Assembly (NCBI RefSeq): GCF_002019765.1
Contig: NZ_KV917380.1
Coordinates: 300,707-364,706, forward strand
Source: Shouchella oshimensis
GTDB taxonomy: Bacteria; Bacillota; Bacilli; Bacillales; Bacillaceae_D
Direction of reading: 5' to 3'
Length of the DNA stretch: 64,000 nt
Below, in pieces: positions 47,396 to 50,728 of this stretch (position 1 is the first letter of the stretch; every line of letters begins with the position of its first letter). The notes under the pieces are model-generated. The model searched no databases. It was given only the letters and a program-made list of their open reading frames with translations, and was not told where the DNA came from. The position numbers and the translations under genes were made by a program.

Positions 47396-48298
47396 ATGAC
47401 GTTAATCATTGATAACGTAGAAAAACAGTTTGGGAATCATACAGCAGTGGATGGTATTTCAGTAAGTGTAGAAAAAGGGCAAATGTTTGGCATGCTCGGA
47501 GCAAACGGCGCAGGTAAAACAACGACGTTCCGAATGATTATTGGCTTATTAGAACCTTCAAACGGAACGGTGACGTGGAACGGACAAAAGCTATCGTACA
47601 AGTACACAAATCTGATTGGCTATTTGCCAGAGGAACGAGGACTTTATCCTAAGTTAACAGTTAGAGACCAACTGATTTATTTAGGAAAGTTAAAAGGAAT
47701 GAAAAAGAATGTCATTATTGATGAAATGCGTTTATGGCTAGAACGCTTTAAAGTGACGGAATATGAAACGAAAAAAGTAGAAGAGCTTTCTAAAGGGAAT
47801 CAGCAAAAGATTCAGTTTATCGCAGCTGTCTTACATAAACCGGAATTGCTCATATTAGATGAACCTTTCAGTGGTCTTGATCCAGTTAATTCAGATATGT
47901 TGAAAGCAGCAGTGCGCCATATTCAAGATCAAGGAACAACGATTGTGTTCTCTAGTCACCAGATGAATAATGTAGAAGAAATGTGTGAAGACATTATTAT
48001 GTTGAAACGTGGTAAAGCGGTTCTACAAGGAAATTTAACGGAAATTAAACGCGGTTACGGTATTAAAACCGTTTCTATCTCCGCTGATTATGACTTGAGT
48101 TTTCTAAAAGAACAGAATCAGGTTACCCAGTACACAGAAACAAAGAATGGTGTGAAAATTCAAGTGGAGAATGAAGACGCTGCGAAAGAGATTTTTTCCA
48201 TTCTTGCTGACAAAGGGTTTGTTCGTAAGTTTGAAGTGGAAGAGCCGAGCTTACACGATATCTTTATCGACAAAGTAGGGGGAGATGCAAATGAATAA
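47396..48298 (+). CDS. ABC transporter ATP-binding protein (NatA/YhaQ-like)
   Basis: 300 residues. Walker A is GANGAGKTT, the signature is LSKGNQQK, Walker B is LLILDEPFSGLD, followed by the SSHQM H-loop. The C-terminal 80 residues form the extra domain (DYDLSFLKEQ onward) typical of NatA-like exporters. AAAGGG lies 9 bases before the ATG at 47396. It works with the permease that overlaps it. Substrate unknown; sodium or antibiotic export is known for relatives. Confidence 0.88.
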   Translation: MTLIIDNVEKQFGNHTAVDGISVSVEKGQMFGMLGANGAGKTTTFRMIIGLLEPSNGTVTWNGQKLSYKYTNLIGYLPEERGLYPKLTVRDQLIYLGKLKGMKKNVIIDEMRLWLERFKVTEYETKKVEELSKGNQQKIQFIAAVLHKPELLILDEPFSGLDPVNSDMLKAAVRHIQDQGTTIVFSSHQMNNVEEMCEDIIMLKRGKAVLQGNLTEIKRGYGIKTVSISADYDLSFLKEQNQVTQYTETKNGVKIQVENEDAAKEIFSILADKGFVRKFEVEEPSLHDIFIDKVGGDANE

Positions 48299-49544
48299 TT
48301 TCGGTACAATTGTCGCACATACATTAAGCGCTAAAATCCGCACGAAATCGTTTTTAATTTCATCGGCATTTATGATGCTTCTTATTATTGGCTTAACAAA
48401 TATTACAACTATTATAGATTTATTTTCAGATGGAGATAGCGATAACGCTACGAAGATTGCCGTTGTGGATGATAGTGAAGATGCAGGCATTATCGCACAA
48501 AGCTTAACCGGACCGAGCGAATTCGAGGAAGAGACAACGTTTGTGCTAATGGATAATCAATCTCTAGAAGACGCTTTGAACGAAGCTGAGGACGGTACAT
48601 ATGATGGGGTTGTGCAACTAAAAGGTACAACCGATTCGTTAGATGTTTCTTTATATAATGATTCTACAACTGTGGCTATGGATGTGGAACAGCAGATTCA
48701 GCGTTTAAAAGAAGGTGTATTGACGAGTGAGCTAGATATTAACGAAGAACAGCTTGCTGCGGTCTATCAGCCAATTGCGTTTGAACAGTTATCATTAGAA
48801 GAAGGCGAGGCAGTAGAAAGTGAAGAAGAAAGCGCGGCCTCCTTTTTTACAGTCTTTGGCATTACGTATGTGATTTTCTTTATCGTCATTCTTTTTAGCA
48901 CAATGATTGCAACGGAGGTTGCTACGGAGAAGTCATCACGAGTGATGGAGCTACTCGTTTCAAGTGTCAATCCAGTTGTCCAGATGTTTGGTAAATTAAC
49001 AGGAATTGCCCTAGCCGGTGTTGTTAACTTATTTACGTTGCTTATTGCGTTTGTGATTGGTATGACCATCGCTGGTGAAAACATTTCAGAGTTTCTATCT
49101 TCTGATGTTATTGATCTAACACTTATAGGTTATGGTATTGTATCGATTGTGCTTGGCTACTTTATTTTCGGTGGAATTGCCGCTATGCTCGGCGCTCTTG
49201 TCAGCCGAACGGAAGAGGTCAATCAGTCTGTACAGCCATTGATTTTTCTTGCATTGATTGGGTTCTTTATTGTGTCATTCAGTCAAGGTTCACCAGATTC
49301 CCCATTCGTTACAGTGGCCTCTTATATCCCATTTTTCACACCTCAGCTTTTAATTTTACGTGTGGGTGTAGGGTCGATCGCTCCATTTGAAATTGCGTTG
49401 TTAATTGGCATCATGGTCATTAGCGCAGTTATCATCAATGTCATTGCAGCTCGTGTTTACAAAGGCGGCGTACTGATGTACGGGAAGTTATCCTTTAAGA
49501 AGAATATTAAACAAGCCCTGGCTGTGTCGAAAAAAGAAAAATAA
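48291..49544 (+). CDS. ABC-2 type permease (NatB/YhaP-like)
   Basis: 417 residues. The first membrane segment (about 20-40) is followed by a large outer domain of about 130 residues with an acidic stretch, then five further segments; ATEKSSRVMELLVSSVNP is typical of this family. I take the ATG at 48291 because GGGGGAG lies six bases upstream; it overlaps the ATPase gene by 8 bases. Confidence 0.87.
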   Translation: MNNFGTIVAHTLSAKIRTKSFLISSAFMMLLIIGLTNITTIIDLFSDGDSDNATKIAVVDDSEDAGIIAQSLTGPSEFEEETTFVLMDNQSLEDALNEAEDGTYDGVVQLKGTTDSLDVSLYNDSTTVAMDVEQQIQRLKEGVLTSELDINEEQLAAVYQPIAFEQLSLEEGEAVESEEESAASFFTVFGITYVIFFIVILFSTMIATEVATEKSSRVMELLVSSVNPVVQMFGKLTGIALAGVVNLFTLLIAFVIGMTIAGENISEFLSSDVIDLTLIGYGIVSIVLGYFIFGGIAAMLGALVSRTEEVNQSVQPLIFLALIGFFIVSFSQGSPDSPFVTVASYIPFFTPQLLILRVGVGSIAPFEIALLIGIMVISAVIINVIAARVYKGGVLMYGKLSFKKNIKQALAVSKKEK

Positions 49545-49560
49545 ATACAGAAAAACGGAT

Positions 49561-49589
49561 TTGTTCTTGCTCAGTGAGTATGGTAAGAT
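49561..49589 (+). promoter_or_regulatory. Promoter of the leader-yidC2 operon
   Basis: TTGTTC (49561-49566), 17 bases, then TAAGAT (49584-49589) preceded by TGG (extended -10). Confidence 0.55.
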
Positions 49590-49628
49590 GGGAATATTGT
49601 GAAAAGGTATCGGAGGAGGTGATGGAGG

Positions 49629-49889
49629 ATGATTGATTTATTTCTAGAGCTATCGTTTATATGGATTCATGTTGGTATATTGCTTCCTGTTCTTGCTTGT
49701 TTAGCATATGAGAACATTAAGCTCCACAGAATGCATGTGAAGATGAAGCGTCCTGTTCGCAAAACGTTAAATACAGGAAGAATGATTGATCTTCCTTCGT
49801 CGCCAGTTACTGCTCGCGTACGCCCGAAGATTCCGTACTTTCGAGATAAGAGCTGTCAAGATGACGATGAACTGTACTTTGTTGTCTAA
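49629..49889 (+). CDS. Candidate MifM-like ribosome-stalling leader of yidC2
   Basis: 86 residues. A membrane segment (about 9-27, SFIWIHVGILLPVLACLAY) is followed by a basic linker (KMKRPVRKT) and a C-terminal stretch RPKIPYFRDKSCQDDDE with DDDE at 78-81, five residues before the end. B. subtilis MifM, also small and membrane-anchored, stalls near its C-terminal DEED and unmasks the yidC2 ribosome site. A perfect AGGAGGTGAT lies 8 bases before the ATG, implying strong translation. Identity to MifM is low, so the call rests on layout, position and the downstream hairpin. Confidence 0.7.
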   Translation: MIDLFLELSFIWIHVGILLPVLACLAYENIKLHRMHVKMKRPVRKTLNTGRMIDLPSSPVTARVRPKIPYFRDKSCQDDDELYFVV

Positions 49890-49919
49890 AGAAACAGCGA
49901 TGTGAGACAACAAAGGAGG
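49877..49919 (+). promoter_or_regulatory. Hairpin masking the yidC2 ribosome-binding site
   Basis: CTTTGTTGTCT (49877-49887), over the last codons and stop of the leader, pairs perfectly with AGACAACAAAG (49905-49915), which runs into AAAGGAGG (49912-49919). A ribosome paused in the leader's DDDE codons would cover the left arm and free the Shine-Dalgarno. Confidence 0.75.
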
Positions 49920-49933
49920 AAATAGAGATACGT

Positions 49934-50728
49934 ATGAAAAGAAAAATATTTTTAACAACAAGCTTATTGTTTATGGCAGTTGTACTTGCTGCCTGTGGAA
50001 TAGACGAGCCTATAACGGCTGACTCTGAAGGCTTCTGGAATTCATTTTTTGTCTATCCAATGTCATTTTTAATCCAATTCTTCTCTGACTTGACTGGAGG
50101 TCATTTTGGCTGGGGGATTGTCATTGTAACCATCTTGATACGTTTGCTGATTCTGCCACTTGCGTTGAAATCACAAAAAAGTTCGCGAGCGATGCAGGCG
50201 TTAAGACCTGAAATGCAGGAGATTCAAGAGCGCATGAAAAAAGCGCAAGGGAATCCTGAGAAACAACGAGAAGTGCAATCAGAAATGATTGGAATGTACC
50301 AAAAACATGGCGTTAATCCAGCCGCTGGTTGTTTACCTGCACTTGTGCAAATTCCAATTGTTATGGCGCTTTATTTTGCGATAATGCGAACGGAAGCAAT
50401 TGGGCAAGGACCTGAAAGTGATTTCCTTTGGTTTAATCTTGGACAAATGGATCCGGTTCTTCCGTTTATTGCTGGTATAACAACGTTTGTTCAATTCAAA
50501 ATGTCGATGAGCCAAATGCCTGCTAATCCGTTAGGTGAAGGAATGCCAAATCCAATGAACATCATGCTGTGGATTATGCCAGTAATGATTATCATTGCCG
50601 GATTGACCTTGCCATCAGCATTAGCGCTTTACTGGGTAATCGGTAACATCTTCATGATTGTTCAAACTTACTTTATCATTGTACGCCCGAACTTGAATAA
50701 AGAAGATGTTGAGAAAGATCGTGCATAA
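49934..50728 (+). CDS. yidC2: YidC/Oxa1 family membrane insertase, second copy type
   Basis: 264 residues. A lipoprotein signal (VVLAACG) is followed by the YidC/Oxa1 core with five membrane segments. The hydrophilic groove Arg is in VIVTILIRLLILPL, and a cytoplasmic hairpin with RPEMQEIQERMKKAQGNPEK follows. It inserts proteins into the membrane. The leader ORF marks it as the YqjG-type second copy, the other (spoIIIJ) being expected elsewhere. The start is 14 bases from GGAGG, longer than usual. Confidence 0.88.
   Translation: MKRKIFLTTSLLFMAVVLAACGIDEPITADSEGFWNSFFVYPMSFLIQFFSDLTGGHFGWGIVIVTILIRLLILPLALKSQKSSRAMQALRPEMQEIQERMKKAQGNPEKQREVQSEMIGMYQKHGVNPAAGCLPALVQIPIVMALYFAIMRTEAIGQGPESDFLWFNLGQMDPVLPFIAGITTFVQFKMSMSQMPANPLGEGMPNPMNIMLWIMPVMIIIAGLTLPSALALYWVIGNIFMIVQTYFIIVRPNLNKEDVEKDRA

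Follow-up and report, generated by a model that had tools for sequence, protein, structure and literature searches.

According to PMC13183943, the arrest peptides named ahead of yidC genes are MifM, ApcA, and CliM. For MifM (YqzJ of B. subtilis, the sensor of yidC2/yqjG), the model given in two papers is a stall at or just after an acidic cluster, released by insertion of the transmembrane (TM) segment (PMC6037786, PMC4423224). In 2024, 572 MifM sequences from 592 Firmicutes genomes were classed by clustering and the acidic patch, with a filter that asked for a local charge (5 residues) below -0.3 between residues 70 and 100 (PMC10987492). The YidC-monitoring CliM (uC_KYxIW, Clostridia) has a TM segment at its N-terminus and a stem-loop that covers the yidC2 start, both also features of the locus described below; it carries a KYxIW motif, and the C. 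difficile-type protein stalls at the end of its ORF before the stop codon (PMC13183943). ApcA, ApdA, ApdP, RQH, and RAPP-like arrest peptides have a RAPP/RGPP/RAPG-like motif near the C-terminus.

The locus reported here lies in a 64,000-nt stretch of Shouchella oshimensis DNA (hereafter the window), where an 86-codon ORF (uORF; 49629–49889, + strand, ATG start) stands immediately 5' of a secondary yidC, its putative target (yidC2; 49934–50728, +; PF02096 E 3.1e-52), across a gap of 44 nt. Judged by sequence comparison, the uORF very probably encodes a YidC-monitoring arrest peptide of MifM type. The genome, a single contig of 4058377 bases, carries one other PF02096 gene, which is of spoIIIJ type and adjoins rnpA- and jag-like genes (neighbours named from sequence reading). 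The closest solved relatives of the yidC2 product are the 3wo6 and 3wo7 chains (Membrane protein insertase YidC 2), which we take to be B. halodurans proteins. An earlier sequence-only reading had credited the uORF with a good ribosome site and one N-terminal membrane segment, and both are present: by direct reading a Shine-Dalgarno site, GGAGGTGAT (49615–49623, +), precedes the ATG, and a hydropathy scan found a single hydrophobic stretch at residues 8–26 (49650–49706, +), with acidic residues on its N-terminal and mostly basic residues on its C-terminal side, charges from which we infer an N-out/C-in topology. That reading also assumed a promoter of the uORF's own. Upstream, an ABC-transporter permease-like gene (48285–49544) ends 84 nt before the uORF, and the promoter-like element of the uORF–yidC2 unit, TTTGTTC-N17-TGGTAAGAT (49560–49589, +), was not among the calls of a simple promoter scan; its support comes instead from conservation, as TTTGT[T/C]C, a 17-nt spacer, and TGNTAAGAT are retained in 7/7 aligned upstream regions of the genus. 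The uORF product itself had a best Pfam match of 13.9 bits (cut-off 27), no NCBIfam family at E ≤ 1, and, as a single query, no PDB sequence at E ≤ 10; the 21-row family profile (A1) gave only one weak match among PDB chains, to the TM region of a heme exporter (E 0.27).

Like MifM, the uORF precedes a secondary yidC, encodes one N-terminal TM segment with a similar spacer, carries an acidic patch 5–6 residues before the stop, and is joined by a stem from its end to the yidC2 start. From the hydrophobic segment to the last acidic residue there are 55 residues here and 49–62 in 28 relatives, which exceeds the more than 30 residues between TM and conserved end expected of the MifM class and sits beside a MifM median of 54 residues, although that median, from signal to arrest site, is a somewhat different measure (PMC10987492). 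Residues 77–81 (QDDDE) have a local charge of -0.8 and pass the published MifM filter. Unlike MifM, the uORF is without R69/I70/W73/I74/M80/N81-type residues and instead has RPKIP...DK ahead of the acidic patch (MifM residues as given in PMC4423224), so that of the B. subtilis arrest residues RIxxWIxxxxxMNxxxxDEED it shares the acidic patch and none of the tunnel residues; the downstream YidC2 likewise falls outside the YqjG group in the YidC tree. Neither the K-Y-x-I-W motif of CliM nor a RAPP/RGPP/RAPG-like motif occurs in its 86 residues.

The stem, identified from pairing and fold, was described in the sequence-only reading as running into the yidC2 Shine-Dalgarno site, AAAGGAGG (49912–49919, +), which by direct reading lies 14 nt ahead of the ATG. 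Its left arm, CTTTGTTGTCT (49877–49887, +), occupies the last uORF codons, where the codon pattern also marks it, and its right arm, AGACAACAAAG (49905–49915, +), enters the site; the arms are fully complementary over 11 bp around a 17-nt loop. The stem reaches no further than the beginning of the site: the last base of the right arm is the first G of GGAGG (49915–49919), and in the lowest-energy fold the rest of GGAGG forms no more than two weak outer pairs. Folded without the left arm, the yidC2 start region reaches -1.3 kcal/mol and is nearly unfolded. In the window this region folds to -16.2 kcal/mol, where dinucleotide shuffles average -11.4 (sd 2.3; z -2.1, 8/200 as good); alone this is only moderately above chance and weak evidence, the comparative evidence being much stronger. 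Over 31 loci, the duplex of each locus's own left and right arms averages -15.05 kcal/mol, compared with -10.81 (sd 0.46) when partners are reshuffled among loci, and 0/20000 reshufflings were as low. In 19/31 loci the actual codons out-pair at least 95% of synonymous recodings and in 12/31 they stay below that level, in a control that applies the codon usage of five window genes to every locus; in six of the 31 (L013, L033, L015, L016, L052, L054), 89–179 of 200 shuffled right arms pair as well. The 31 were drawn from 43 loci, L002, L003, L007, L009, L010, L011, L018, L023, L024, L043, L055, and L057 being left out as near copies, with one for a broken frame and one for overlapping genes. A known RNA element at the leader was ruled out for 49400–50100, over which an Rfam scan returned no match at E ≤ 1.

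A conserved stem by itself would suffice for plain translational coupling, in which translation of the 3' end of a small membrane protein opens the stem with no regulated arrest; such coupling, however, requires no conserved C-terminal peptide, and the peptide is conserved. Profile A1 matched the uORF in 38/41 family genomes, and all 38 matches start 464–487 nt ahead of the second YidC match (coordinates compared by hand). Against 397 genomes of the order it matched 41 at E ≤ 0.1, and among 27 newly fetched loci one (L056) had no uORF and two (L058, L059) were not ahead of a yidC. Searches with the single sequence gave matches at E ≤ 1 in 42 of 60 relatives, many of the weaker ones surely due to chance, and strong ones (E ≤ 2e-19) in 12/13 genomes of the genus, its own included; identity is 95% in Shouchella miscanthi (a name that resolves taxonomically to S. 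hunanensis), 67% in S. xiaoxiensis, and 45% in S. shacheensis. In the alignment a variable linker gives way to a sharply bounded C-terminal module, RPKIP-x3-DK-x3-DDD/E: K67 and D78 never vary in the 21 rows of A1, where W12, P66, I68, P69, D73, and D79 reach at least 90%, and K67, P69, and D73 still do so in 28 rows that include other families. DDDE, which the sequence-only reading had pointed out, is indeed found at residues 78–81, but the signature is larger, with top conservation in RPKIP...D...DDE, and the alignment and codon pattern delimit a putative arrest module at codons 65–81 (RPKIPYFRDKSCQDDDE; 49821–49871, +).

Differing codon pairs, counted by uORF region in five rows of the genus, separate the module from its surroundings. 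Codons 62–81 have 76 synonymous and 39 nonsynonymous differences in 200 pairs, the linker (codons 31–61) 93 and 171 in 310, the TM part (codons 13–30) 53 and 76 in 180, and codons 82–86, which hold the left stem arm, 0 and 19 in 50; by these regional differences, the module is constrained at the protein level and the last uORF codons at the RNA level. Plain coupling accounts neither for this protein constraint beside a free linker nor for the recurrence of an acidic-ended module ahead of YidC2 in other families, and we regard it as improbable. The C-terminal residues and the hairpin, on whose conservation in relatives the sequence-only reading had staked its case, are thus both kept.

That reading also described the sensor as an analogue of MifM with little sequence identity. 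The low identity holds: single-sequence searches, and the first profile against PDB chains, revealed no similarity between the uORF and MifM, and B. subtilis MifM, used alone as the query, matched 48/397 genomes at E ≤ 0.1, strongly in only 10, all of one genus. The sensor reading passed the comparative tests, but the sensor is probably not just an analogue. Three ORF profiles were built, an RPKIP-type one of 27 sequences, an intermediate one of 8, and a YqjG-type one of 30 that includes B. subtilis MifM, with L057 (f28) kept out of the RPKIP set because it is of the same family as two intermediates. In hhalign the RPKIP-type profile aligned to the YqjG-type profile with 90.96% probability (E 1.1e-6; reversed control 2.70%) and to the intermediate profile with 95.98% (reversed control 1.17%), and the intermediate aligned to the YqjG-type profile with 61.83% (reversed control 0.36%). 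When single ORFs were scored against 1472 negatives (reversed ORFs and window ORFs), the RPKIP profile ranked 5/8 intermediates and 2/30 YqjG-type ORFs (B. subtilis MifM and one other) above all negatives, and the YqjG-type profile did so for 1/27 RPKIP-type ORFs. Profile comparison, while not overwhelming, supports the uORF as a remote homologue of MifM, and given this support and the catalogued MifM-class uORFs across Firmicutes, the uORF probably belongs inside the known class. The expectation that it would broaden the arrest-peptide family is accordingly reduced to a variant, since this kind of sensor is already known and catalogued among the 572 MifM sequences, and the RPKIP module is a variant of it. 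A keyword search of the literature found no paper linking MifM with Alkalihalobacillus or with clausii.

In the order, a search for PF02096 across 91 genomes matched 91/91, and from among the matches listed we fetched 60 YidC regions that were second, only, or doubtful, along with 20 SpoIIIJ regions. Among these, an ORF that is hydrophobic N-terminally and carries an acidic patch lies upstream at 44/51 YidC2 loci belonging to other families and at 0/29 SpoIIIJ-clade loci, the latter being an imperfect control because rnpA occupies the space ahead of spoIIIJ. A quick YidC tree (111 rows, midpoint root), which leaves a single origin of all YidC2 undecided, united 42 YidC2 in one group (SH-aLRT 100) with the B. 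subtilis-group sequence inside, recovered a SpoIIIJ clade of 30 rows (99), and placed the window type and other YidC2 between the groups. By eye, W-I/L...KRKE-x-PDD-like modules tend to close the ORFs ahead of YidC2 from the 42-row group, and K-I-P...D...DDE closes those ahead of window-type YidC2; an exception is L100 (f9), where an RKE-type ORF precedes a long-branched YidC2 that falls outside the 42-row group. At YqjG-type and intermediate loci the stem test was weaker, with 84/20000 reshufflings as low (rough anchors; 23 of 35 uORF-bearing loci usable).

The uORF is absent from three of the 41 family genomes (G006, G033, G420). G006, which belongs to the genus and measures 2.6 Mb, retains yidC2, the permease gene, and a promoter-like element but has lost the uORF; the leader there (L173, G006:C8, 750–850) forms a long stem of -27 kcal/mol (z -3.6, 0/200 shuffles as good), with most of the Shine-Dalgarno region outside it. 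In G033 (L175, G033:C80) and G420 (L177, G420:C14), both of genus g3, an ORF with KRKESPEDDGDY replaces the RPKIP-type ORF, and the YidC2 is YqjG-like, with an LKQ[Y/S]KNQ stretch also present in L134, a member of the 42-row group, a type assigned by eye and for G033 also by a lower Pfam score (151.6 bits). Since both genomes carry the other ORF together with the other YidC2, leader type and insertase type seem, on sequence grounds, to go together. The yidC2 frame of G420 appears broken. Separately, L007 (G005:C26, ~1690–1806), from a draft genome 86% complete, has a frame shift inside the conserved module, after which the uORF continues to the yidC2 start; this may be an assembly error or a real loss.

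These exceptions bear on a further explanation, that the small protein is functional in its own right, for instance as a YidC partner or small membrane protein whose tail binds a partner. The conserved tail could be such a binding site, yet most of the sequence, the TM segment included, is strongly variable while the tail beside the stem is fixed, G006 retains yidC2 without the uORF, the uORF type appears to switch with the yidC2 type, and the position of the module at the uORF 3' end beside the stem is left unexplained; we consider this explanation quite unlikely. A chance ORF with a chance stem, for which the modest fold (z -2.1) might speak, has a negligible probability and is rejected by the presence of the uORF in 38/41 family genomes, the synonymous-biased codons of the module, and the own-partner pairing of the arms.

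For the MifM-like sensor favoured here, comparison establishes the uORF itself, its fixed place before yidC2, the conserved C-terminal module, the covarying stem, and the 55-residue spacing; the earlier proposal is amended in that DDDE is not the whole signature. By analogy with MifM, we infer the stall, its exact codon, YidC-dependent release, and the membrane topology. With ample insertase activity, the nascent chain would have its N-terminal membrane segment inserted and the resulting pull would release the ribosome, upon which the stem would re-form over the yidC2 start region and little YidC2 would be made. When YidC activity is low, the module RPKIP-x3-DK-x3-DDDE would hold the ribosome at about codons 79–83, its front edge would cover the left stem arm, and the freed Shine-Dalgarno site would allow YidC2 to be made. 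With the P-site at codons 79–82, the computed front edge lies at ~49878–49889 (assumed footprint +15 to +17).

We tentatively propose, at slightly less than even confidence, that two or more arrest codes exist among MifM-type sensors, each moving together with its own insertase (RPKIP...D...DDE with 3WO6-like YidC2 and W-I...KRKE-x-PDD with the YqjG type), that B. subtilis MifM is a divergent outlier, that KIP reaches the same A-site block through other tunnel contacts, and that sensor and insertase are exchanged together. Their exchange as one cassette is suggested by G033 and G420. Within the literature searched, what is new is the second module, its association with a different YidC2 type, and the natural cases of loss and swap. 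Because the acidic end is all that the RPKIP module has in common with the solved MifM arrest sequence, the module can reveal the contacts on which MifM-type stalling depends, and nature supplies controls in G006 (leader lost, yidC2 kept) and in G033 and G420 (other leader with other insertase type). B. subtilis MifM, the one studied in depth, may not be typical of its class.

A further layout was seen in several families, in which the uORF continues past the acidic patch into the yidC2 start (L112, L122, L128, L129, L131, L132, L135, L136, L142), an overrun into the yidC2 frame that differs from the form in which the uORF stops before the stem.
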